Shown piece by piece: positions 6,301 through 38,007 of a stretch of DNA of 64,000 nt. This DNA comes from Henricia sp. BOLD:AAB3569 (Eukaryota > Echinodermata > Asteroidea > Spinulosida > Echinasteridae), in the NCBI GenBank assembly GCA_037783545.1, contig JBBELK010000369.1, forward strand, positions 310,001-374,000, given 5' to 3'. The notes beneath the pieces were generated by a model that did no database searches, had not been told where the DNA came from, and worked only from the letters and a program-made list of their open reading frames with translations. The position numbers and the translations under genes were made by a program. Each line of letters begins with the position of its first letter. Within the stretch, counting starts at the first letter, position 1.

Positions 6301-8310
6301 TTAAAATCGAGTTACATTATTGGCACTTGTGGCCCACCTAGGGGATCAAGGAGCATAAGGACAATGCATCAACATTTACAAGGTGTAAGTAACATCAATC
6401 TAGAAGATTACTATTTAAGTACAGTCCACACTTGAGCATTTTGCTGTTCTACTGCCGTTGTAATTTGGGCGCGCCAAATTTGTTTTGTAATGGTATTGTC
6501 CTGTTTGGTGGTTGTTGGCAGGGTGGTGGAGGTGGCGGCCTACCCAACCTTGGACCGTCTCTTGGCGGTATGGACTTGGGATCCATTCTCAACAATCCAG
6601 GCCTCATGAATGCGGTGAGTTAATTAGGGAATAAAAGTGGGTTTGGCGAGTCTTAAACTGTATGTTTAATACCGGCTGGAGACCAGGAGGCTGGTAATGG
6701 CGCGAGCCGTAGGGTGAGGGGCCACTATCAGCCTTCTGGTCCCCAGCCGGATTGACGTAAAATTCACTAAAAGTTGTCGTTTTGCGTAACCGTGTGTGAC
6801 CGAAACCTCACTAATACCGCTGAAATCTTGTTCTTTTATTCCCATCTACCAGGCATCAACGCTTCTGCAGAACCCCCAAATGCAGAACATGTGAGTATGC
6901 ACATAACATGCTGTTTTCCCTGTTATAGACCCTTTTCCCTTGGGGCTATGTTTTACGAGCAGGGCCCAATTTCATGGCGCTGTTTTAGTTTAGCAGCCAA
7001 TTTTGTGCTTACGGAGGCTCTGGCTATTTCATTGAGACCGTAACCTTAAGCACTGCTAAACGTCTGCTAGCTTCAGAGGCAAAATTTGCTAAACACTTGT
7101 GATGCATCAATGCCTGTTCCCAAGCATGCGTATGCTTAAGCACGCCGCGGCCGTGAAATAGCGGTAACGTTAGCAGCACGTTTCTGCTACAGTAAGCACA
7201 CGTTTTCAGCTAGCACTTAAGCAGCACAATGAAATTGGCAACAGCGCCAGTAGTACCCTGTAAGGTAGATATGTTTATTATTATTAATATTATTAAATGT
7301 GTTTTTGTTGCAGGATGAGTTCATTAATGGGACAGACCATGCAAGGTGATGGAAGTGGTAACGAAGACCAACAAGCCAGCATGGCTAACTTATTACAAGT
7401 GTAAGTACCCATTTATTGCCAACATTCCTGGGGCCAATTTCATGGCGCTGTTCAGCACAAACATTTGCTTAGCACAGAATTTACTTGCCTTGTATTGCAA
7501 AAATAAGTTGTCAGCCAAAATGTTATTTACTAATATTTTGCTACTGTTTCTTAAAACACAATTTGACATACAGTTTTGGCTGCTAACCCATTTTATAAAG
7601 CAAAGAAATTCCGTGCTAAGCAAATGTTTGTGCTAAACAGTACCATGAAATGCATAGTTCCGACCTGTCAATCAAGCCGAACCCGCCGACCAATCACAAC
7701 AGAGCTAGCAGACGGCGCCCACATAGGTCAAAGTGATGCAATCATCACAACAATCATGCGATTTTCTGCCCATACAGTTTGTATGTTGTATGCGCCAGTG
7801 ACCGGGTGAATTTTGGTTTCAATGTCGGGCGATTCGCTGTTAAAAGGTAGGAAAGCGCATTTTTATGAATATATGTCATCCCTGCATTACTATCCCTTTG
7901 CTCAGTGTGTGCTACGGTAACTGTCGACCCTAAAACATAAATACCTTTGAGTTTTCTCCAATGAATCTGTGCTTTCCATGCCGAGTCCCGTTGCTTTGTA
8001 CGTTGTGTCGCCATTTTTTTGCCATGGCTTGTGAGCACATAGCAACAGTATCTAAGGGGCGGGGTTAACTGGGCAATCTCGGAACTATGCATTGGCCTAG
8101 AAACAAAATCTTGACAAGTTTCTTTTGACTTTCGATATTTTTGCCATTCTCTCCAGAGGGCAACAGATGGCCAGCCAAATCCAACAGCAGAATCCTGAGC
8201 TAGTTCAGCAAATACAAGGCATGAGAAATCGGCCGAACCAGCCCAGTGGGGGCAGCAGTGATGACACAGACAACCAATCACAAGACGGCGCTAATCCGCC
8301 TGCAAGTTAG
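3343..8310 (+). CDS. SGTA: Small glutamine-rich TPR-containing co-chaperone (SGTA/SGTB type)
   Basis: A cytosolic co-chaperone of the BAG6/GET system that passes tail-anchored and mislocalised membrane proteins between chaperones (family knowledge). The coding exons are 3343-3442, 4296-4405, 4576-4717, 5233-5437, 6089-6227, 6522-6614, 6853-6890 (38 nt), 7314-7400 and 8157-8310. They sum to 1068 nt, i.e. 355 aa plus TAG; human SGTA is 313 aa. All introns are GT-AG and every phase joins cleanly. Residues 1-70 are the N-terminal dimerisation domain, and an insert at about 71-105 is acidic/polar and poorly conserved. Three TPRs lie at about 110-211 (KNQGNELMKQ, SNRAAAYSKL, SKAYGRMG motifs, including carboxylate-clamp positions). 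A Gly/Met/Asn-rich client-binding tail follows (LNNPGLMN, QNPQMQNMM) and then a short Q-rich end (QQQNPELVQQ). The start was chosen because MAGVSQVIFSILEFF aligns with the family N-terminus. It is probably the single pre-duplication orthologue of vertebrate SGTA and SGTB. Confidence 0.93.
4020..4262 (-). repeat. tRNA-derived SINE in SGT intron 1
   Basis: On the minus strand, TGTGGCCTAGTGGGTACAC resembles box A and GGGTTCGAGCCCC is a box B. A following part contains GGGCAAGACACCCAATC and GCCTCGTCAACCC, a core-like sequence typical of tRNA-SINEs in deuterostomes. It ends near the ACATGTACGTGG word. Intronic, non-coding. Confidence 0.7.
5670..5865. repeat. Inverted-repeat MITE in SGT intron 4
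   Basis: TAGACTTGCCCAAGTCTGA at the left is mirrored by TCAGACTTGGGCAAGTCTA at the right. An inner stem pairs GGACTAGTGGCCTGT with ACAGGCCACTAGTC. About 196 bp, non-coding. Confidence 0.75.
6671..6752. repeat. Short GC-rich hairpin in SGT intron 6
   Basis: GGCTGGAGACCAGGAGGCTG at the left faces CAGCCTTCTGGTCCCCAGCC at the right, giving a near-complete stem of about 22 bp with a loop of about 37 nt. Probably a small MITE; no second copy was seen in this window. Confidence 0.55.
6962..7250. repeat. GGCCAATTTCATGG-family MITE (SGT intron 7)
   Basis: The ends are CCCAATTTCATGGCGCTG and an inverse-type AATGAAATTGGCAACAGCGC. The inner words TTAGCAGCC, GGAGGCTCTGGCTATTTCAT and GCTAGCTTCAGAGGCAAAAT recur at 22745-22866 and 54340-54535. 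It is one of the commonest families in the window (also 7430-8098, 11645-11885, 22355-22866, 26753-27000, 35700-35870, 37010-37275, 58745-58950). Confidence 0.7.
7430..8098. repeat. GGCCAATTTCATGG-family MITE split by a second MITE
   Basis: The left part begins GGGGCCAATTTCATGGCGCT and runs to ACCATGAAA at 7650. The expected right terminus TTGGCC appears at 8092, after the inserted element 7651-8091. Removing the insert restores CCATGAAATTGGCC exactly. Lies in SGT intron 8. Confidence 0.8.
7651..8091. repeat. TGCATAGTTCCGA MITE, copy A
   Basis: The ends are TGCATAGTTCCGA and its inverse TCGGAACTATGCA, 441 bp in all. A near-identical copy is at 60213-60650 and a partial one at 53262-53512. 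The high similarity of two copies 52 kb apart points to recent mobility. No transposase is encoded, so it is non-autonomous. Confidence 0.85.
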
Positions 8311-26505: not shown

Positions 26506-29500
26506 ATGGAGGCACCCGTACCCAGGGAGAAGGAGCATTTGCTCTCTTTGAAAGGTAATTTGTGAACACCATCTTGTGGGATAATACGTAACCCAGTTTT
26601 ATTCAATGAGGTGGGTTTTAATGGCGTGAATTCCGTTCACTTGTCAACATTTAGGCGCTGTGTGCAAAGTACTTTTAAGTTGACGCGACTGTCTCAGATG
26701 ACGTTCGCCGCGCGCACCCGGCCGGGCCGGCTCTAAGAAATATACTTAACTGGGGCCAATTTCATGGCGTTGCTTAGCACGAAAATTTGCTAAGCACAAG
26801 ATTTATTTGCTTTATAAAATGGATTACAAGCCAAAATTATACACCAACTTGTGTTCTTCGCAAGAGTAGAAGAATACCTTTCAATACACGTCACTTACGA
26901 TTTTGGAGCCCTGGCAATCCATTTTTGCAAAATAAAGCAAACAAATCCTGTGCTAAGCAAATTTTTGTGCTAAGCAACGCCATGAAATTGGCCCCTGGTC
27001 GCCACATGATACACCGTGTGTTAAGTCTATGGAACAGGGCACCCAGGATTTGCCTTTTCATGATCTATAAACCGTGTAAAAATATTAGTTTGATGATAAA
27101 AACACAAAATTAACAGGAAAAAATGTCATTATTTTACTAAGGAAAAACTTAAAAATTTTCGGAGTTGTCTCAGACATAAAATTATAGGTGCAATGCGTGG
27201 GGTCCATGTGGGTGTCCATGCATGGTAATCTTTCTGCCGGGTGTGGTTGAAACTCGGAGGTCAGAGGTAACCCGGAGGTTATTTACCGTCAAGTAGCTCC
27301 GGGTTTACTGTCAACGCACCAACTACACGTTAGCAAAAAACATCTACCTCCGGGCACCTCCGGGCACCTCCGGGCACCTCCGGGCACCTCATGGCACCTA
27401 GCTCCTGGCACCTCCTGGTACCTCTGACCTCCGGGTTTTAGAAAATTTCCCTTTCTGCCCCATCTCTACCTCGCCCAATTTCTACTTGGCGCCACCCAAC
27501 TTCACAATGGCTTTTATAAACATTTTTGTTATCTGGGTCGTATCTTAAGTGATCTCTGGGAGGGGTGGTTATCTCATTGAAGGGTTTATCCCTCTGTAGG
27601 TCTTGTTAAGCTCATGTGATAGCACACTGTGTTTCAATATTTTTGGATACTCTACTTCCGAGTTATAAAACAGTGCTTGGTGCACATGTATCACTCTGTT
27701 AATTGTTTTCTTCTTTCTGCAGTTATGCGGTTAACCAAGTCTGCGTTTATAACCACAAGCCCCGTCTTGTTTGAGCCCAGAGACTTAGCAGGTAAGCAGT
27801 GTTCGACTTAGACGGGTGCACGCATGCACTGGTGCATGTACTTTTTTACCTGTGCATGTAAGGATTTGTATTTACGTGCACACCGTGCACGTACTTTTTT
27901 TAGGCCCAATTACGTACCTGGTATATTTCCCCACGTTGAACCAGCCATAGACCAACTTGTCACAACGCACGCACCGTACCTGTACCGTACACGCAACGCA
28001 CGATCAGACGATCGATCGATCAACCAGCGCTATCACGGTACATATTGCCAAGACTGTACCGCTGTGTGCGTAGACGTGAGTGTGGCCGTTTTCTAAACAC
28101 TTCCTTCGTCTATATGTTCAGGGTACATGCAATTCACCATCCAAGCAATACAGCGCGTGAGCACGTAGCATAAAAACGACTAGAAAAACACTAGGGGGTA
28201 TCGCAATTGAGCAATTGGGTATACCCCTCTTGGCCACCGCTGTATGTTGTGCATGTACACATACAAACACGTGCATGACTAGTGTGTGTAGCGATCGCAG
28301 ATGATCATTTCCAATGCACTGTATTCAGATCATTCAGACACTTTCGTGCGATATTGTGAATCATCCGATAGCATACCTAGCTGCCAACTAGTCCGATTTT
28401 ATCGTATTTGTTCCGATTGTTAAGTGTTAAAAGTGTTGAAAATCGGAACAATCGAAACGGTCGACTTGACCTGACTCCCCCGCGCCGCATGTATTGTGTA
28501 CATGAAAACAGGTGCAGTACATGGATATCTGTGGTGCAGTACTAGGTCAACTCGAACGTTGCAAGTTTCACTACAGTCCGATTTTGTTTTTTACTCGGCA
28601 ATGTTGGCAGGTATGCGATAGTGACTTCTAAAACCAGGTAAATGTAAGGGTGTCAAACTTTTGAAGTTTTATTATATATCCTTGATGAAATTAACAATAG
28701 GGACTGTACAAGTACAACAAATGCATTTTATTGAACAAAACAAAACAACACCATTATTAAACAGCGAATACATAAATAATACTCTTTTTTTTAATGAGAT
28801 GTGTGCACAATTTTTTCGTGCATGTAAAAGTTGCTCTGTGCATGTAACTTTTTTAGTCTACATGCACCAGTGCATGTAATTTTTTTTTTCTAAGTCGAAC
28901 CCTGCAGGTAAGAATATCTAAAGAAGTTGCGCAACTGGGAGCATCCACTCATGTGTACGTTTCCGGAGCGTGCACATCAACAAGGCAACTCAGTAAAGCC
29001 TAGAGTACATTGACCTTGCAACTGGAAGCAACTGTTGCTTCCAGATGCTGTCGATGTGCCCACGTGATCAGATGCACTCGTGCAACTGACAGCAACTAGT
29101 TGCAAGTACGCGTACATCGACGCAACTGACTGCAACTGTGTACAACTAGTTGCCAGAGAGTAGAACATGAGCAACTCGTGGAAACTGGGATTTTTCCAGT
29201 TGCCAGTAGTTGCAAGTGCGCATACATCGACCTTTGTAAGCAACTGATCAGTTTCTCCCAGTTGCTGCGAGTTGCTTCTAGCTTCCGGAAACATTAGTTG
29301 CCACTAGTTGCTTCCAGTTGCAAGGTCGATGTATGCTAGGCTTTACTCCACCAAAGGGCTTCACAGCTAGATTGACCAGATTCTATTGATTCACTCTGTT
29401 TCAGGCGGCTCTACTACGCAGGACATCTGTCCAAAACTTGGTCTACCAAAAGGAATGGAGCACTTTGGAGTTGGGGAGCTGCTTATGCTACCTCAGAACT

Positions 29501-32500
29501 TTGGGTATTTGTTGATCTAAATGAGTTGTTCAGGATTTATTTAGCAATGTACACATATTCCCTCATTAAAGTTTGTGTAAAAATCGGTAAGCCGGTTTAA
29601 ACCGGTCTGCCCAAACCTAAAGACAAGTTATGATTGGAAAACTTTTAAAAACGGGAACAACAGCATTACATAACTAAAGAATAATGTTGATAAACTGCCT
29701 TGTAGAAATTTCAGCCACATAGATGCAGTAATACTTCAGAAAACCTGAAAAATCCATGCATGTTTTTAGTGTTGAATGAATTGTAAAAAAATTAAAAAGC
29801 ACCTTCAGTTGCCAATAAAAAAAGGTAAAATTTTACATGAGAAAAAAAATCATGTGGTGTTTTTACTATTGCTATCAACAATTTTAGTCTTTTGGGTAAC
29901 TTAAAATGATGTTTTGGGGCTTTTTAGACCAATACAGAGGTTCCCTGCAAGGAGCGAATTATTTAGTTAAAGATAGTATACATGATTGATAAACTGTTAC
30001 AAATAGTTTTATCCCCCTGTGTGATTGAAGATATGCATGATTAAAACTAACCTGAGCAAAAACTAGCTCTGTACTTCGTCTAACTTTTGAGAAAACAGTC
30101 AAAAAAGGGTTTGCAGTAATTTTTCCCCAAAACCACTTCGCCCTGAACCATTTCGCCCTGAACCACGGCCTGTGCACGAAGAGGTTTTGGGGCGAAGTGG
30201 CATTTTGGCGATGTAGTGTTTTTGGACGAAGTAATTTGGGGTGAAATGGCACTCGGGCGAAGTGGCACTTGGGCGAAATGGCACTTGGGCGAAATGGTTT
30301 TGGGGCAAATTGAATTTTTGTCTCATGAGACGAAAACTAATTGTTTTACTCATTTTTCAAAGACTATAGCACTTCAGACAAAACCATTTCAGGGGAAGTT
30401 TTCTACGGTCATCATGTTTATATTGTGTAAGTTAGGCGTAAATCTGTGAACATTTCTGATTTTCGAGATTACCAATGATGTATACTGCCTTTAAATTATT
30501 GGTCTGTAACTTATTTTTACAACAGTCCTCTTACATCAAAAATGCAACATGTCTCTTTTATATCTGAAGGAGCATCTACCTTGGGGAGACTTTTTCCAGC
30601 TACGTTAGCGTACACAATGACAGTGGGCAAGTCGTCAAGGACATTTTACTCAAGACAGACTTACAGACCAGCTCACAGCGGTTGACGTTGTCTGGGGCAG
30701 GCACCCCACCCCAACCAGAGCTCGCCCCTTCAGAATGCATTGACGAAGTCATTCATCACGAGGTCAAAGAACTTGGCACGCACATGTCAGTTATTTATTT
30801 GATTTGATTTATATGTACGATACCAAGCAACAAGATCTCTGACACACAAAGCAGATGCTCTACCAGCTGAGCTATGAGGCACAGTGGTATGCTCATTCAG
30901 GTTTTCTCCAAGACCTCTGACACACTGGGCAGATGCTCTACCAACTGAGCTATGAGGCACAGTGGTTTACTCCCTCAGGTTTCCCCTAAGACCTCTGACA
31001 CACAAAGCAGATGCACTACCAGCTGAGCTATGAGGCACAGTGGTATACTCCCTCAGGTTTTCCCCCAAGACCTCTGACACACCGGGCAGATGCTCTACCA
31101 GCTGAGATATGAGGCACAGTGGTATATTCCCTCAGGTTTCCTCTAAGATCTCTGACACACCAGACAGATGCTCTACCGGTTGAGCTATGAGGCACAGTGG
31201 TATACTCCCTTAGGTTTCCCCTAAGACCTCTGACACACAAAGCAGATGCTCTACCAGCTGAGCTATGAGGCACAGTGGTTTACTCCCTCAGGTTTCCCCT
31301 AAGACCTCTGACACACAAAGCAGATGCTCTACCAGCTGAGCTATGAGGCACAGTGGTATACTCCCTCGGGTTTTACCCAAAATCTCTGACACACCAGGCA
31401 GATGCTCTACCAGCTGAGCTATGAGGCACAGTGGTATACTCCCTCGGGTTCTACCCAAAATCTCTGACACACCAGGCAGATGCTCTACCAGCTGAGCTAT
31501 GAGGCACAATGGTATACTCCCTCAGGTTTTCCCTAAGACCTCTGACACACAAAGCAGATGCTCTACCAGCTGAGCTATGAGGCACGTGGTATACTCCCTC
31601 AGGTTTCTCCTAAGACCTCTGACACACAAAGCAGATGCTCTACCAGCTGAACTATGAGGGCAGTGGTTTACTCCCTCGGGTTTTCCCTAAGATCTCTGAC
31701 ACACAAAGCAGATGGTCTACCAGCTGAGCTATGAGGCACAGTGGTAGAGAACCCGAGATTTTTGACATAAGCTGTAAGAGATTAAAGTTGTGAGACACCC
31801 TAAAACTACATGAAAATGCCAGTGATGGCAGTATAGATGGCCATAATAGAGGGCAGTCACATTGTCACAGTGCGTCATGCACGAGTAGGCACATTGTGGA
31901 TCTATTGTCACATAATTTAAATATGAAAACCTGTCCTCTATCATGGCCGCTAGGCATAAGGTCTATTGCCTCATCTTGATGGGTTATTGAACAATTTAAA
32001 TTTTTTTGGTAAAAAATACTTATTGTTTTCCATATTATCACTGTATTCATAGCTTGGTTTGTGCAGTTAGCTACACCACTCTGGATTGTGAGAGCATGTA
32101 CTTCAGAAAATTCTTCAAATTTCAGGTAAGACAGCCTTGAAATCAAATTTATCTATTAGCAATTGTGCCTTTCTAAAATTATTTATACTCCTTTGGTAAA
32201 ACCTTGATATATTTTTGGACCCGGCTTGCAGGTTTTCAAAAACATCTCTCTATAGACCGTGTGACTTTTGTTTACATATAAAGAGCCCTCTATTCAAATC
32301 TTGCCTGTGCATCCATCATGCTTTGCATATTAGGGGATGCTTTGCATATTTGTGACAATCGTGCATGTTACATTCGAACACAAAATGCGCTACACGCGCA
32401 CGAGTTCTAAACCGACCCAAACCGGTTGCGGTGATGATGTGCCATTCAATAACACAGTCGTTTCTTATCTAGCTTTTCATTATCCATATTTATGCACAGC

Positions 32501-35500
32501 AAGATGCGTGCGCACACCCAATGTTTTGATGCCTGCCGTGATGTCAGAGGTCACACCGTTTATATTATTAAAATTTTAAGCTTACATTTGAAGATGGGAA
32601 TACCTTGACTTTTGAATTTATTGACAACTAGACCCAATCATTCTAGGGAAATAACTTTGACAAAGTTCTGACAAAGATCAAAAATGACATTTTCCTGATG
32701 ATGTGAACGGGCCACTCTTCGTTTGATCAGAATCATAAATCTTGTACAACTGTCTTGCCTTTACATGTAGGTATTAAAACCTTTGGATGTCAAGACAAAG
32801 TTCTACAATGCAGAGGTAACGTCTTGGTTGAAGCCAAAAACTGCCAGGGACATCAGTGTTCTTAACTGGTCGACAATTTGTCCGGGCGCGCTGAGCAGCG
32901 CCCTCATGCGATGAACTCTGACAAACCCCGGTTCTCTGCGTGAGGGCGCTGTTCAAAACAAATGCATACAACTGTCACACAACTGTCACAGCCGTGGATT
33001 GGGTCACCGATGCGATAGATATGTGTGGTATTAAGTCAACAAAAATTACACTAGTGGCCAGCGAATCATGTTTGGCGATTTTACACCTAATTTTGGAATG
33101 ACTCGGCCGTATTACTGAAGTGTTTTTAGAAGGTAAAATATATTATTTTTGTCCGGGCGACTGAGTTTTTGGTCCGGGCGGCAAATTTTTTGTCCAGGCG
33201 TTAATGGTACCTCAGATTATTTTGTCCGGGTGGCGCGCCCAGACAAAACAGCTAGTGAAGAACCCTGGGACATGGCATTAAAATTGGCATTTTGTGTGTA
33301 AATGTGTGTTTAATGTATGGAATGTGCATGTAGAATATATAAACTCCTCAAAAAAGTTCGGAAGGTCAAGTTTGACTGATGATTTCTCTCTTGTTGCAAA
33401 ATAATTTTCCGTGAATTTTATATCATTGGAAAGCCCTGTTATTCCTCTTTACGATGATGTCATTTGTTATGATTAAGCAATTGAGGGATGTGCAGCACAG
33501 CTAAATACGGGGCGGGTGTAAAGTGAAATGTCACAAAATGCATTGCTATTGTCAAAAAGTGCATTGACACATTCCCATCCTCCAAGCAAAAGGGGAATGC
33601 ACTGCATGACAATAGCAGTGAATTTTGTGACATTTCACTTTCCACCCACCCCTGTATAACACTATACTGCACATTGTTATTTAGTAACAAGAGAGAAATC
33701 GTCAGTCAAACTTGACTTTCCGAACTTGTTTTGAGGAGTTTATAATGGGCCTGGTTCAGCCGCTAATTTCTAGATCTAGTCACAAAAACTCAGCCAAGAT
33801 TGTTTGACATTGGACTCATTATGTGAAACAGTGTTCTGCATGACCACTTTAAGGCTGGATTCGTACTGAGCCTTTTCGCGCATAAATATGATGCGTGTCA
33901 TTTTGAGAAATTGGTGTGGAAGGAATTTTGAGTACACTTTATTTGTGGTTTTCAGGGCGTCATTTCACTCGAAATTCCCTCCATACCGCTTTTTCTTAAA
34001 GCAAGATGCATCAAATTTATGCATAAATAGACTTGGTGTGAATTCGCCTTTACATGTATTAGAGTGAACCGCCCTGCTAAATTTTTAGGCTGCCCTATTA
34101 AATTGTGCTTTTTAACCAGAGTTTTACATAGTAATTTTATAACAAATATTTAGTAACATTAATCATATAAAATCCACAATCATATAAAATACCTCCCCAA
34201 AATACTATCCATGGGAAGAAAACAGGGAATTTGCAAACTCCAATTTGGATGTGGAAGCAAAAAGGTTGGTGTAATCACTGCACTGCTTTATAGAACGGTA
34301 AATTAGTTTACAAAACATTGGTGGTTTTTTTTACGATATCCTTGAAAATATACGGATTTAGAGCATGAAATTTTAGAATGGTAGTGAGAAAAATATGACA
34401 AATGATATGGTATCAAAATCTCAACACCCATGGGGAAAATGGGAGGCTTAAAAATGTGATCTGATTCTCGGAGCATGTGGATGTAGTGTTGTTGTTTATC
34501 GTAGTCGCTAACTGTGTTTCTTTGCCACTTATTGCTTGCTTCTGCATGTGATGTTACTGGCCTGTGTGTTCATTCACCATGACTGCTGCACTGTGTCTCT
34601 GTGTGCTATGTGCAGGATTATGTAGTAAGTCTGCCGTTTAAATGTTTTTTCTGCCCGTTTAGTATACAGGGTGTCCCAAAGAACATCTAGGTCAAACCTG
34701 GCAACCTCAGAATCCATGGGCGTAGGCTGGTTTGGTCATAGGGGGTGCAATTTTCATGAAAGCGGAACTCCAACTCTTGAAAAGCCGGGATCGTCAAGTT
34801 GGGTGATCAGTCACTCAGCAGGAAATGGGGGGGGGGGGGGATGGTGGTGGTGTGGGGGTGGGGGTGGGGGTGTGGGTGTGGGGGGTACCTTTTCCAACAC
34901 CCCTCGAAATTTGTCTTCAATTTTGCCAATTGTGTTTGACAACAACACAGATCCGTCAATGACACGTACCATGACGTATCACACCCCTGGAATCTATATT
35001 ACTCTTCATGAAAGAGTGCCTCTGGGATCTTTTAAGTGCGTTACTCAACACACTGGACCAATGGCTTTACATCCCTTCCGAAGGATGGAGCAATTGTGGT
35101 TAGATGCCTAGCTTAAGGGCACAGGTACCATGGCCGGGTACCGAATCCGCAACCCCAAGTTTTTACCCGACCCAAATCACTCGGCCACGGTACCCCACAT
35201 GCATGGTTGCACGTGCTTACATTGTTTACAATTTAAATATCAAAAGTTGCCCTACAAGATGGCAGGTATTCGATACTGTCTATAAGTGCGTAACTTGAAG
35301 ATGCTCGTCCCAGGTCGAACCTTTCGGGTCGAACTAACGTACCTTTCTGGTGCGCCGAAGAGACAACTACATGTACGTGTATCTAAGCGCTCGAATTATT
35401 CGCATTGTAAATTCCCCGTATTCTATTCCACATTTTTTTATAAAGTCTGATGAAGTTTACCTGGAGGCGCAGATACAGAACATTACACAGTCTCCGATGG

Positions 35501-38007
35501 TGATGGAAAGAGTCTTATTGGAACCAACATCGGAGTACGGAGTCAGGGAACTCAACGCGCTGGAGGCCAATGGAAAAAGGTATCGCCCATATTTGGATTT
35601 GCTTCGTTGTATTTGTAGAAGCTATAAGGGGCCATCCAAAGTTGTCAACATTTTCACGGAACTACAAAGCATAGGAAAGGGGGGTTCAAGGGCCGCGCAC
35701 GACTTTACATGCCTTAACTGCAGGGCCAAACTTTGCTTAAGATAGTGACGTAACAATAGCCGTTTCCAAGCGTGGTCATGCTTAAAAACTCCGCGGTCAT
35801 GAAATAGGGCCTAGCGCTTAACTCGTCTGCTATAGTAAGCACGCCTTTTCAGCTAATACTGAAATTGGTTCCTGGTCTTAACTTTCGGCCAATCAAATTT
35901 GCCTTTTTAAAAAAATTGTATTTTTGGCCTAAAATAATCCTGGCGTAAACTGGCTAAAATGATTGTACCCCCAGAAGTCCTGACAGAGTTGCATTTTTTG
36001 TTTGATTTTGCCGTTTTTGACACAGAAGTTCCGAGACAACCTTTGGTAGTTTCAACTACTTAAATCCCATGGACACCAGGCAATACCTATACTGTCTGAA
36101 GGCCAAACCCTTGCCTGGTACAGACAAACCAGCCGTCATCAAAGGTGTGTCGAATATCGGCAAGTTGGATATAGTCTGGAAGACGGGCATGGGGGAGAAA
36201 GGCCGGTTACAGACCAGCCAGCTACAGAGAATGGTAATGTATTTCGGGTTACGTTCGAGCGTGTACTAAAGGTAGTATACTGGTTTGGTAAACTGTTAAA
36301 ATTGGCATGATTTCCACTGGTAATTGAAAGCATAGGTCGAGAAAATACTTTGTATAAATTTCAGCCACATAGATGCAGTAATACTTCATAATAATTCAGA
36401 ATTGTTTTTAGAGGGTAATTACCAAACAAGTAGACTACTTTTAACACTGGTCAACCATGCGTTCATTCTGTGGGTAGTCTCCGTACATATAATCATGGAC
36501 AAAGTTGTTTAATATGACGGAGTCGACCATTTATGGCAGTTTTCCCCCCTTCTCCATATTTATGTTTCATAGGCCCCAGGTTACGGTGACGTCAAACTAA
36601 ATGTGACGGGGGTACCAGACTCAATCGTGATAGAGAAGCCATTCCAGATCAAGTGTAGAATCACTAGTTGCTGGTAAGTACAGCTCGTTTGGGATTGTTC
36701 GATCTTCGTTAAGTCAGATGTGAAAGCACACTTCTTTAACTTGCGATGATTAACTAATCTTCGTCGAACGAAGCAATTTTTTCTAGTGAGAACGAAGTCT
36801 AAGTCTCCTTTCTTTATGCGTCTATCAGTGAACGTACAATGGACCTGAAGCTTGTTCTAAACAACACTGGAAATGGCTTGCTGTGGCTGGGAGTGTCTGG
36901 GAGGCAGTTAGGCAAGCTAGGACCTGGTGCTTGTATGGATATTGAGCTGGATCTACTATCTACTGTCCCTGGATTACAGGTACATGACAATGTAACCTAA
37001 GTCCTGGGCCCAATTTCATAGAGCTGTTTAACAGCCCATTTTCCGTTAACCGAGCATCAGGCCATTTCATAGACATCGTCAACGGTAAGCAACTGAAAAC
37101 CTGCCTTAACCGCAGAGCCAAATTTTGCTTAAGATAGTGACGCAACAATGGCGGTTTCCAAGCGCACGCATGCTTAAGCACACTGCGGCCGTGAAATAGC
37201 CTTAACATTAGCACAACTTTTCTGCTACAGTAAGAACATGTTTTCAGCTAGCGCTTAACCAGCTCTATGAAATTGGGCTCAGGTTTACACCCAATAATTT
37301 TTTTTACAATCTTTGACATCGACTTGTCACTATAACGCCACTAAAAGTTACAGGAGCGTGACCAGATTTTGTTCAAAAAAATGAATTTCGTTCTAACCTA
37401 ATAATCGTATAAAATACCTCCCCAAAATACTATCCATGGGAACAAAACATGTAATTTGCAATCTCCAAGTTAGATGTGGAAGCAAAAAGGTTGGACAGCT
37501 TTATGGAATGGATAAGTTAGCTTACAAAACATCGGTGGTTTTTTGATGATATCCTTGAAAATATACGTATTGATCGATGAGAGCGTGACATTTCAGAATG
37601 GTAATGAGAAAAATGTGGCAGATGACATGGTATAAAAATCTGAACACCCTTTGGAAAAATTTGGGCTCAAAAAATGTGATCTGTAAAAGAAATTTACTGT
37701 CATGACGACTTTACTTGAACTGACTTGGCCAACGTGCCTGACTAGACTTGACCCGCATTGACCCGACTTAACTAACATACTTGACTTGATTTGAGACTCG
37801 ATGGTAATTTGACTTGACACGACTTGGGACACAATGGCAGTTTGACTTGAGTTGGGACTCATTTACATAATATTCAAATATTATTTCTCCCTTTGTCAAC
37901 AGAGTGTATCTGGGCTACGGCTGACTGACACCTACCTGAAGAGAACATATGAGCATGACGATGTGGCACAGATATTTGTATATTCAGAGCACTTGGTTGG
38001 TGCATGA
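26506..38007 (+). CDS. TRAPPC13: Trafficking protein particle complex subunit 13
   Basis: A subunit of the metazoan TRAPP tethering complex (TRAPPIII, Rab activation and autophagy/Golgi traffic; family knowledge, DUF974 family). Coding exons are 26506-26554, 27723-27791, 29405-29504, 30570-30785, 32053-32125, 32771-32815, 35446-35579, 36026-36233, 36573-36673, 36829-36979 and 37903-38007. They total 1251 nt, i.e. 416 aa plus TGA, against 417 aa in human. The phases join without a break. Conserved blocks are [17 protein letters not shown] at the N-terminus, [83 protein letters not shown] and [20 protein letters not shown]. There is no signal peptide, membrane segment or catalytic motif. The exon 4 donor is the weaker GTCAGT. 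A 9-nt candidate microexon at 34616-34624 could add three residues. A hAT-like element sits exactly at the exon 2 donor. Confidence 0.95.
26753..27000. repeat. GGCCAATTTCATGG-family MITE (TRAPPC13 intron 1)
   Basis: GGGGCCAATTTCATGGCGTT at the left and AACGCCATGAAATTGGCCCC at the right are exact inverse copies. The inner stem pairs TGCTTAGCACGAAAATTTGC with the inverse words near 26960. About 248 bp. Confidence 0.85.
27345..27440. repeat. CACCTCCGGG decamer tandem repeat
   Basis: ACCTCCGGGC is repeated about four times without change and then decays to CACCTCATGG, CACCTAGCTCCTGG and CACCTCCTGG. Related CGGAGGT words occur in inverse just upstream (27256-27280), giving a small hairpin potential. 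Confidence 0.75.
27535..27625 (+). repeat. SINE head fragment
   Basis: GTGATCTCTGGGAGGGGTGG, TTATCTCATTGAAGGGTTTA and TAAGCTCATGTGATAGC match, in inverse, the sequence at 2010-2095. No tRNA-like body follows, so the copy is truncated. It ends about 100 bp before TRAPPC13 exon 2. Confidence 0.65.
27797..28904. mobile_element. hAT-like element, 1108 bp, inserted at the exon 2 splice donor
   Basis: The ends CAGTGTTCGACTTAGA and TCTAAGTCGAACCCTG are inverse copies at 15 of 16 positions. Both sides carry the 8-bp target duplication CAGGTAAG (27789-27796 and 28905-28912). The duplication is the 5' splice site of TRAPPC13 exon 2. Sub-terminal GTGCATGTA words are iterated at both ends, as in hAT transposase-binding regions. 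No transposase frame exists inside (longest open frames are about 90 codons and unlike any known protein), so it is non-autonomous. Confidence 0.9.
28990..29349. repeat. Foldback element rich in AGTTGC words
   Basis: AGTAAAGCCTAGAGTACATT at the left mirrors GATGTATGCTAGGCTTTACT at the right. The interior is a dense series of GCAACT and AGTTGC words (AACTGGAAGCAACTGTTGCT, AACTAGTTGCAAGT), which can pair in many registers. Lies in TRAPPC13 intron 2, 55 bp before exon 3. Confidence 0.75.
30125..30312. repeat. 16-bp minisatellite (GGGCGAARTGGCACTT)
   Basis: On the right side three head-to-tail units read GGGCGAAGTGGCACTT, GGGCGAAATGGCACTT and GGGCGAAATGGTTTTG. The left side carries the same word in inverse (CCACTTCGCCCTGAACCATT). 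The overlapping open frames on the minus strand are repeat artefacts. TRAPPC13 intron 3. Confidence 0.75.
30836..31765 (-). repeat. Tandem array of 12 tRNA-like half-units (about 78 bp each)
   Basis: Each unit, read on the minus strand, contains TGCCTCATAGCTCAGCTGGT then AGAGCATCTGC, i.e. the acceptor, D arm and box A of a tRNA-like sequence, followed by an AAACCTGAGGGAGTATACCA spacer. Box B is absent from all 12 units. The array starts 50 bp after the TRAPPC13 exon 4 donor. Two related units, with box B, form the head-to-head structure at 38813-39119. Minus-strand open frames here are repeat artefacts. Confidence 0.9.
31830..31970. repeat. CATGGCCGCC MITE copy
   Basis: GGCCATAATAGAGGGCAGTC at the left and TGTCCTCTATCATGGCCGC at the right. 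GCATGCACGAGTAGGCAC-type middle words match 23945-24100. Confidence 0.75.
32854..33267. mobile_element. hAT-like MITE with GTCCGGGCG interior
   Basis: The ends CAGTGTTCTTAACTGGTCG and CTAGTGAAGAACCCTG are inverse-related, flanked by GGACAT on both sides. The interior iterates TTGTCCGGGCG words (four times in 33150-33235). It begins 38 bp after the TRAPPC13 exon 6 donor. No coding capacity. Confidence 0.7.
33338..33745. repeat. Foldback element (AAACTCCTCAAAAAAGTTCG)
   Basis: ATAAACTCCTCAAAAAAGTT and AAGTCAAACTTGAC-type words at 33338-33400 are mirrored by TTGACTTTCCGAACTTGTTT and GAGGAGTTTAT at 33700-33745. The inner stem pairs CATTGCTATTGTCA with TGACAATAGCAGTG. About 405 bp. Confidence 0.75.
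33853..34055. repeat. GGATTCACACTGAGC-family MITE copy
   Basis: AAGGCTGGATTCGTACTGAG at the left, TTGGTGTGAATTCGCCTTT at the right. TTTTCGCGCATAAATATGAT and AAGCAAGATGCATCAAATTT correspond to the inner stem of 15395-15645. Confidence 0.7.
34165..34475. repeat. GGAGCGTG-family MITE, near full-length copy
   Basis: Word order: ATAAAATACCTCCCCAAAAT, ACTATCCATGGGAAGAAAAC, TTGGATGTGGAAGCAAAAAG, GTTGGTGTAATCACTGCACT, TTACGATATCCTTGAAAATA, GACAAATGATATGGTATCAA and ATGTGATCTG. Full copies elsewhere end in inverse GGAGCGTGACCAGATC / GATCTGGACACGCTCC. TRAPPC13 intron 6. This family has about a dozen copies in the window. Confidence 0.75.
34616..34624 (+). CDS. TRAPPC13: Candidate 9-nt microexon of TRAPPC13
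   Basis: GATTATGTA is bounded by an acceptor (CTATGTGCAG) and a consensus donor (GTAAGT). It lies between exons 6 and 7, and both flanking junctions are phase 0, so inclusion adds Asp-Tyr-Val without a frame shift. The upstream 50 bases are rich in TGC/CTG words, the context favoured by SRRM4-type neuronal microexon regulators. Vertebrate TRAPPC13 carries a few extra residues at this same point. With so short an exon, chance remains possible. Confidence 0.4.
34827..34892 (+). repeat. G-rich low-complexity tract
   Basis: Runs of five or more G are separated by T or AT (GGGGGTGGGGGTGGGGGTGT). It could fold as a G-quadruplex on the plus strand, which is the transcribed RNA sense of TRAPPC13 intron 6. 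No function known. Confidence 0.75.
35040..35205 (-). repeat. SINE fragment related to 17545-17665
   Basis: GGCTTTACATCCCTTCCGAA, GGATGGAGCAA and CGGGTACCGAATCCGCAACC are shared with the copy in calreticulin intron 3. The box B is decayed. Confidence 0.5.
37005..37275. repeat. GGCCAATTT-family MITE copy (TRAPPC13 intron 10)
   Basis: GGGCCCAATTTCATAGAGCT at the left, AGCTCTATGAAATTGGGCTC at the right. TGCTTAAGATAGTGACGCAA and GTTTTCAGCTAGCGCTTAA are shared with 35700-35870 and 6962-7250. Confidence 0.8.
37360..37690. repeat. GGAGCGTG-family MITE copy
   Basis: It begins AGGAGCGTGACCAGATTTTG and ends ATGTGATCTG, with AATACTATCCATGGGAACAA, TAGATGTGGAAGCAAAAAGG and ATATCCTTGAAAATATACG between. 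TRAPPC13 intron 10. Confidence 0.75.

Follow-up and report, generated by a model that had tools for sequence, protein, structure and literature searches.

A young, non-autonomous hAT-like transposon at the splice donor of TRAPPC13 intron 2 in the sea star Henricia

What becomes of splicing when a transposon inserts directly into the 5' splice site of an intron? This question is raised by a 64,000-nt stretch of the Henricia sp. genome assembly (hereinafter, the window), where a 1108-bp element sits at the junction between exon 2 and intron 2 of TRAPPC13. Comparison of this copy with an uninterrupted counterpart in the same assembly indicates, with high confidence, that the 5' splice site of intron 2 was hit by a young non-autonomous hAT-like transposon, with the exon-side donor probably still in use. 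Unless noted otherwise, all coordinates are those of the window and all features of the gene and the element are on the plus strand.

The exon numbering follows the first-pass annotation of this DNA; exon 1 was not located. Exon 2 (27723..27791), delineated by sequence and reading frame, is preceded by the acceptor TTTCTGCAG and ends in GACTTAGCAG, and the frame from 27725 is open through this exon, across the acceptor at 29404 and on to ...LLMLPQNF. Exon 3 (29405..29504) is bounded by the acceptor CTGTTTCAG|GCGGC and by the donor TTTGG|GTATTTG (at 29505), whereas for exon 4 there are two candidate acceptor AGs, 30569 and 30572, of which the frame favours 30569. The identity of the gene rests on Pfam matches, namely, the TRAPPC13 N domain at C369:340571-340792, inside the window, and the TRAPPC13 middle domain at 35338-35745. 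Thus, the assignment of the interrupted donor to a TRAPPC13 exon holds, given that the frame runs across the acceptor at 29404 and that the TRAPPC13 domains match the downstream exons; the peptide encoded by exons 2-4 had no match in the PDB.

The duplicated donor and its empty counterpart

The octamer CAGGTAAG forms an exact pair at 27789-27796 and 28905-28912, with exactly 1108 bp between the two copies. The left copy is the exon-side donor CAG|GTAAG, with the intron starting at 27792: the sequence reads ...GACTTAGCAG|GTAAG, the octamer being followed immediately by the terminal sequence of the element, CAGTGTTCGACTTAGA. On the far side, TCTAAGTCGAACCCTG is followed by the second CAGGTAAG and AATATC, and this right copy makes up a second potential donor. 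Both copies and the inverted ends of the element are as the first-pass annotation had described them. Within the window, the octamer occurs on the plus strand only, at 27789, 28905 and 32123, and is absent from the minus strand. The chance that a given pair of ends is abutted by an 8/8 match is ~2e-5 (assuming a GC content of 0.41), but the interpretation of the pair as a target-site duplication is independent of this estimate because it follows from the empty site.

The assembly (740.7 Mb in 2104 contigs) was searched with window positions 27300-27796, which yielded 43 matches from the best 40 of 2721 candidates. Besides the window itself, one match among those scored includes the exon 2 part of the query, C329:5362848-5363014 on the minus strand, which is 99% identical and extends exactly as far as the final base of the left duplication; the other matches from the best 40 candidates represent a short repeat located farther upstream. 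The C329 partner reads GACTTAGCAGGTAAGAATATC, with one CAGGTAAG and no element. The empty site that the first-pass annotation had proposed to seek in related species was found, therefore, in the same assembly, and it supports the claim that the insertion struck the exon/intron junction itself. Relative to the empty site, the exon-side donor keeps positions -3 to +5, the sole change being A to C at position +6, so that the duplication left an intact core donor next to the exon and produced the second one on the far side, as claimed.

Intron 2 is 230 bp long in the C329 partner compared with 1613 bp in the window copy. The element and one duplication account for 1116 bp of this difference, in agreement with the proposed growth of the intron by 1.1 kb, and the other 267 bp fall in the region of a fold-back repeat. 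This repeat (28992..29347), with outer arms at 28992-29033 and 29306-29347 that are 93% complementary, takes up much of the remaining intron and is shorter, by the same 267 bp, in C329.

The empty site proves the insertion regardless of whether the C329 copy is an allele or a duplicate. The C329 chain is collinear with window positions 18437-53458, with 22.5 kb aligned at 92% identity, and the collinearity reaches both ends of the 30-kb stretch compared (C329:5344501-5374500). Exon 2 differs between the two copies by one silent substitution, exon 3 is identical, and the coding part of exon 4 contains four differences that leave the protein unchanged. Matches to the TRAPPC13 N domain are restricted to C369 and C329 (three matches, with four of the four candidates scored). 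Two collinear versions of this region are present in the assembly, ~8% different where aligned and separated by many large indels, a pattern that resembles an unmerged diploid, and the simplest reading is that C329 and C369 represent both haplotypes of an organism with very high heterozygosity. The empty locus might instead be a recent segmental duplicate, in which case the insertion could be fixed at its own locus. The identity over the aligned parts is indeed low for alleles and the indels in the 30 kb compared are numerous, but a duplicate appears unlikely given the collinearity up to both ends of that stretch and the presence of the N domain on two contigs only, as expected with both haplotypes in the assembly.

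Direct repeats of 8 bp can mediate deletion, and it is conceivable in principle that C329 once carried the element and lost it, either through excision or through a precise deletion mediated by the two CAGGTAAG copies. Excision of hAT elements, however, usually leaves a footprint; the C329 site is perfect, without a footprint, and the element is very young, which makes such a loss highly improbable. The preferred reading remains an insertion into the window copy, with C329 representing the state that preceded it.

The element, its family and its target sites

The element (27797..28904) is a non-coding DNA transposon that is present in copies across the genome; its longest stop-free stretch is 94 aa, and it is therefore non-autonomous. 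The left terminal inverted repeat, CAGTGTTCGACTTAGA (27797..27812), matches 15 of the 16 positions of the right one, CAGGGTTCGACTTAGA on the minus strand (28889..28904), which is preceded by a run of T. Inside the terminal repeats are subterminal ones, three GTGCA[T/C]GTA units at 27832..27893 and three copies of GTGCATGTA at 28818..28878. Such a set of three GTGCA[T/C]GTA units per end, all read on the plus strand, is a plausible candidate for a transposase-binding arrangement.

A DNA search with the element, in which the best 40 of 1241 candidates were scored, gave 43 matches at no fewer than 40 places, the window included. These 40 places, that is, the window and 39 others, were compared together with their flanks, and four truncated copies (L040, L045, L046 and L047) were left out of the duplication count. 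Among the 36 end-to-end copies, the 8-bp duplication is perfect in 34, carries one mismatch in one and is lacking in one (L033), so that the refuting outcome named in the first-pass annotation, other copies with different ends or devoid of 8-bp duplications, did not materialize. The duplicated sequences vary between copies, as expected with independent insertions. The family is young: its copies differ from one another by 1.5% on average, the window copy departs from the majority sequence by 0.27%, and L026 and L027, which occupy different sites, have zero substitutions between them. By their left ends, the copies fall into at least two subfamilies, CAGTG..GACTT and CAGGG..GATTT.

The first bases of hAT elements follow the consensus YARNG, which is matched by the starts CAGTG and CAGGG of this family. 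The length of the target-site duplications, nearly always perfect, is typical of hAT transposons as well, and the 16-bp inverted repeats are within the 10-25 bp given for hAT elements in PMC3942097. The element is likely to belong to hAT, as the first-pass annotation had it; duplication length and ends fit, but no transposase is tied to these ends, and the class is not proved. The genome contains 37 matches to the hAT dimerisation domain, and the 16-bp end, allowing for up to two mismatches, was absent from all of the 30 hAT-domain loci scanned out of these 37, with ~3.2 kb covered at each, so that ends farther out would be missed.

Two of the loci, L069 and L070, were considered as a potential partner and rejected because their 12-base match, CAGTGTTCGACT, sits inside a different, 4.9-kb repeat, with back-to-back ends. 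The latter repeat, 99.7% identical on two contigs, encompasses a hAT dimerisation domain within a 433-aa stop-free stretch. A 2046-bp relative (L088, C620:2672174-2674259), which shares its ends with the family, is flanked by the 8-bp duplication GTGGATTG and contains additional internal sequence, and is possibly a step towards an autonomous element; the four stop-free stretches scanned in it contain no transposase domain and gave two unrelated matches below the cut-off (E 0.12 and 0.15). An autonomous, transposase-bearing partner with these ends was not found among the loci scanned and the matches listed, the latter being 100 of the 116 places and 100 of the 178 ends that match the end pattern; a longer partner may be among the remainder.

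A close parallel is provided by the BuT2 MITEs of Drosophila willistoni (PMC3942097), non-autonomous hAT elements that share with this family the 8-bp duplications, the short inverted ends, the lack of coding capacity and the presence of young, similar copies at different sites. The present element, at 1.1 kb, is longer than the 532-927 bp quoted there for the BuT2 short copies, and the loci scanned gave no autonomous partner for it.

Does this family seek out splice sites? The genome contains 178 intact ends CAGNGTTCGANTTAGA (85 forward and 93 reverse, compared with 2 for the control). The tetranucleotide AGGT lies within 8 bp outside an intact end in a single case, the window copy, against ~3.2 cases expected from base composition. 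Because the pattern is present at either end of the element and the search took in the two strands, this count covers donors in either orientation, and the lack of any excess suggests a chance insertion at the donor that happened to be tolerated, with no sign of splice-site targeting. The chance that one of 90 insertions takes this exact register of some donor is ~1-4%, assuming 100,000-300,000 introns, and comparable cases can be expected to exist once the full set of transposon families in a genome of this kind is considered. In the duplications themselves, T at position 3 and A at position 6 are weakly overrepresented (31/70 over both positions, uncorrected p 0.006).

Splicing of the enlarged intron

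The geometry of the duplication suggests how the intron could have remained functional. The transposase would have made a staggered cut of 8 bp, and since this stagger fell exactly on CAG|GTAAG, gap repair would have copied the core donor to either side of the element. With positions -3 to +5 preserved, the spliceosome would keep using the exon-side donor and pair it with the original acceptor at 29404, so that the element would be removed within the 1613-bp intron. The allele probably escaped selection through the lucky register of the insertion rather than through any splice-site seeking by the element. Use of the exon-side donor is expected, and we infer that ordinary one-step splicing of the longer intron is the likeliest outcome.

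If the element were retained, the protein would read ...DLAG and then KQCST followed by a stop, with the TAG located in the left inverted repeat; such an immediate stop implies that either the exon-side donor works or the allele is damaged. A damaged allele, in which the intron would often be retained or the distal donor used, leading to a stop and mRNA decay while the other copy of the gene works, is compatible with the position of this stop only a few codons past the end of the exon (DLAGKQCST*), with the existence of the empty gene copy in the assembly and with the competition that an identical core donor 1.1 kb downstream would present. We nevertheless regard it as an improbable outcome because the exon-side core donor is intact up to +5 and, in the parts of exons 2-4 compared, the coding sequence differs only silently from that of C329.

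Ordinary splicing from the exon-side donor is, however, not the only way in which a functional message could be produced. The distal duplication could act as an acceptor and then as a donor, TTTTTTTTTTCTAAGTCGAACCCTGCAG|GTAAG (28905-28912), a possibility missed by the first-pass annotation. In such two-step, stwintron-like splicing, the element together with one duplication would be spliced out first, from the exon-side GTAAG to the distal CAG, which would restore the donor CAG|GTAAG, and the restored donor would then remove the old intron. The defining feature of a recursive site, AG|GT after a pyrimidine tract, is present at this position, with a tract that is good at a distance and weak beside the AG. 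Specifically, the distal AG|GTAAG comes directly after the T-rich end of the element, and pyrimidines occupy 18/24 positions from -28 to -5, a level reached by two of the 185 AG|GT sites on the plus strand of the window, this site included. From -20 to -5, pyrimidines make up 10/16, compared with 11/16 for the exon 3 acceptor, but 39 of the 185 AG|GT sites are equal or better over this interval, and close to the AG, from -14 to -5, the distal site has only 6/10, compared with 8/10 for exon 3 and 10/10 for exon 2. For the candidate exon 4 acceptor at 30572, the respective values are 11/16 and 5/10. On balance, two-step removal of this intron seems doubtful.

Known recursive introns show both likenesses to this locus and differences from it. 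Ratchet points of Drosophila, as presented in PMC8605326, are adjoining acceptors and donors, and thus the intronic AG|GT juxtaposition is shared; these sites, however, reside for the most part in long introns and depend on a cryptic exon, whereas the intron in question is only 1.6 kb long. The [D] stwintrons of Lipomyces have been proposed to begin with a donor duplication (PMC7138796) and also share with the TRAPPC13 intron a nested layout that is possibly removable in one or two steps. In that case, the duplication is a 4-7 nt tandem one, in a yeast, and splicing is confirmed with RNA, in contrast to a transposon target duplication that also brings the AG of a potential acceptor. For the stwintrons of Hypoxylaceae, an absence of target duplications is described (PMC12403724).

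It is a tentative possibility, then, based on the arrangement of the signals, that the target duplication built a recursive intron with a zero-length exon in one mutational step. If true, this would amount to a direct route from a transposon to a ratchet point or stwintron, with the empty counterpart preserved in the same genome. Judging by titles and abstracts in the open-licence literature, a weak basis for such a statement, the formation of a ratchet point through a target duplication has not been described. The locus provides for a direct test of whether an AG|GT duplicated beside a transposon end makes an intron two-step. The favoured reading is still the one-step removal of the enlarged intron from the exon-side donor.

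Relation to intron gain and other repeats of the window

The first-pass annotation likened the insertion to introners, that is, transposon-born introns. The analogy is valid in that the duplication supplies splice signals but fails in that the intron pre-existed: it is found in the empty copy, bounded there by the same donor and acceptor, and hence no intron was gained. Nor do many members of the family reside as introns at splice-competent sites, to judge by the single AGGT among the 178 intact ends, and on these two grounds the classification as an introner family was rejected. Ac/Ds is a hAT element, and intron gain by maize Dissociation has reportedly been described by Giroux et al. 1994. 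Introners, according to PMC9860276, derive one or both of their splice sites from target duplications, much as the duplication here provides a donor and a potential acceptor; however, introners create new introns in many genes, unlike the present element, which entered an existing intron and belongs to a family without an AGGT preference. Insertion into AGGT accompanied by its duplication is one of the proposed routes of intron gain, for which the evidence is described as indirect in a review (PMC3443670). The shared feature of the cases discussed there, including maize Dissociation, is a duplicated AGGT flanking a transposon, but in those cases the transposon enters an exon and gives rise to a new intron.

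What sets the TRAPPC13 insertion apart from the cases in these papers is that an existing donor was hit by a transposon. The locus offers a clean natural example of such a hit, and a very young one, in which the core of the donor was spared and both the filled and the empty copies are represented in one assembly. An 8-bp stagger can span the core donor, which could make such insertions tolerable.

Some other repeats in the window came up in the course of the analysis. A region with a weak, below cut-off match to adenylate cyclase was tried as a synteny probe and discarded as uninformative, being composed mostly of repeats. Upstream of exon 2, a repeat of ~90 bp (27534-27623) has dozens of matches in the genome, mostly 93-98% identical. 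Another high-copy, low-divergence repeat is located at 7649-8095, with many ~445-bp matches in the genome at 96-98% identity.
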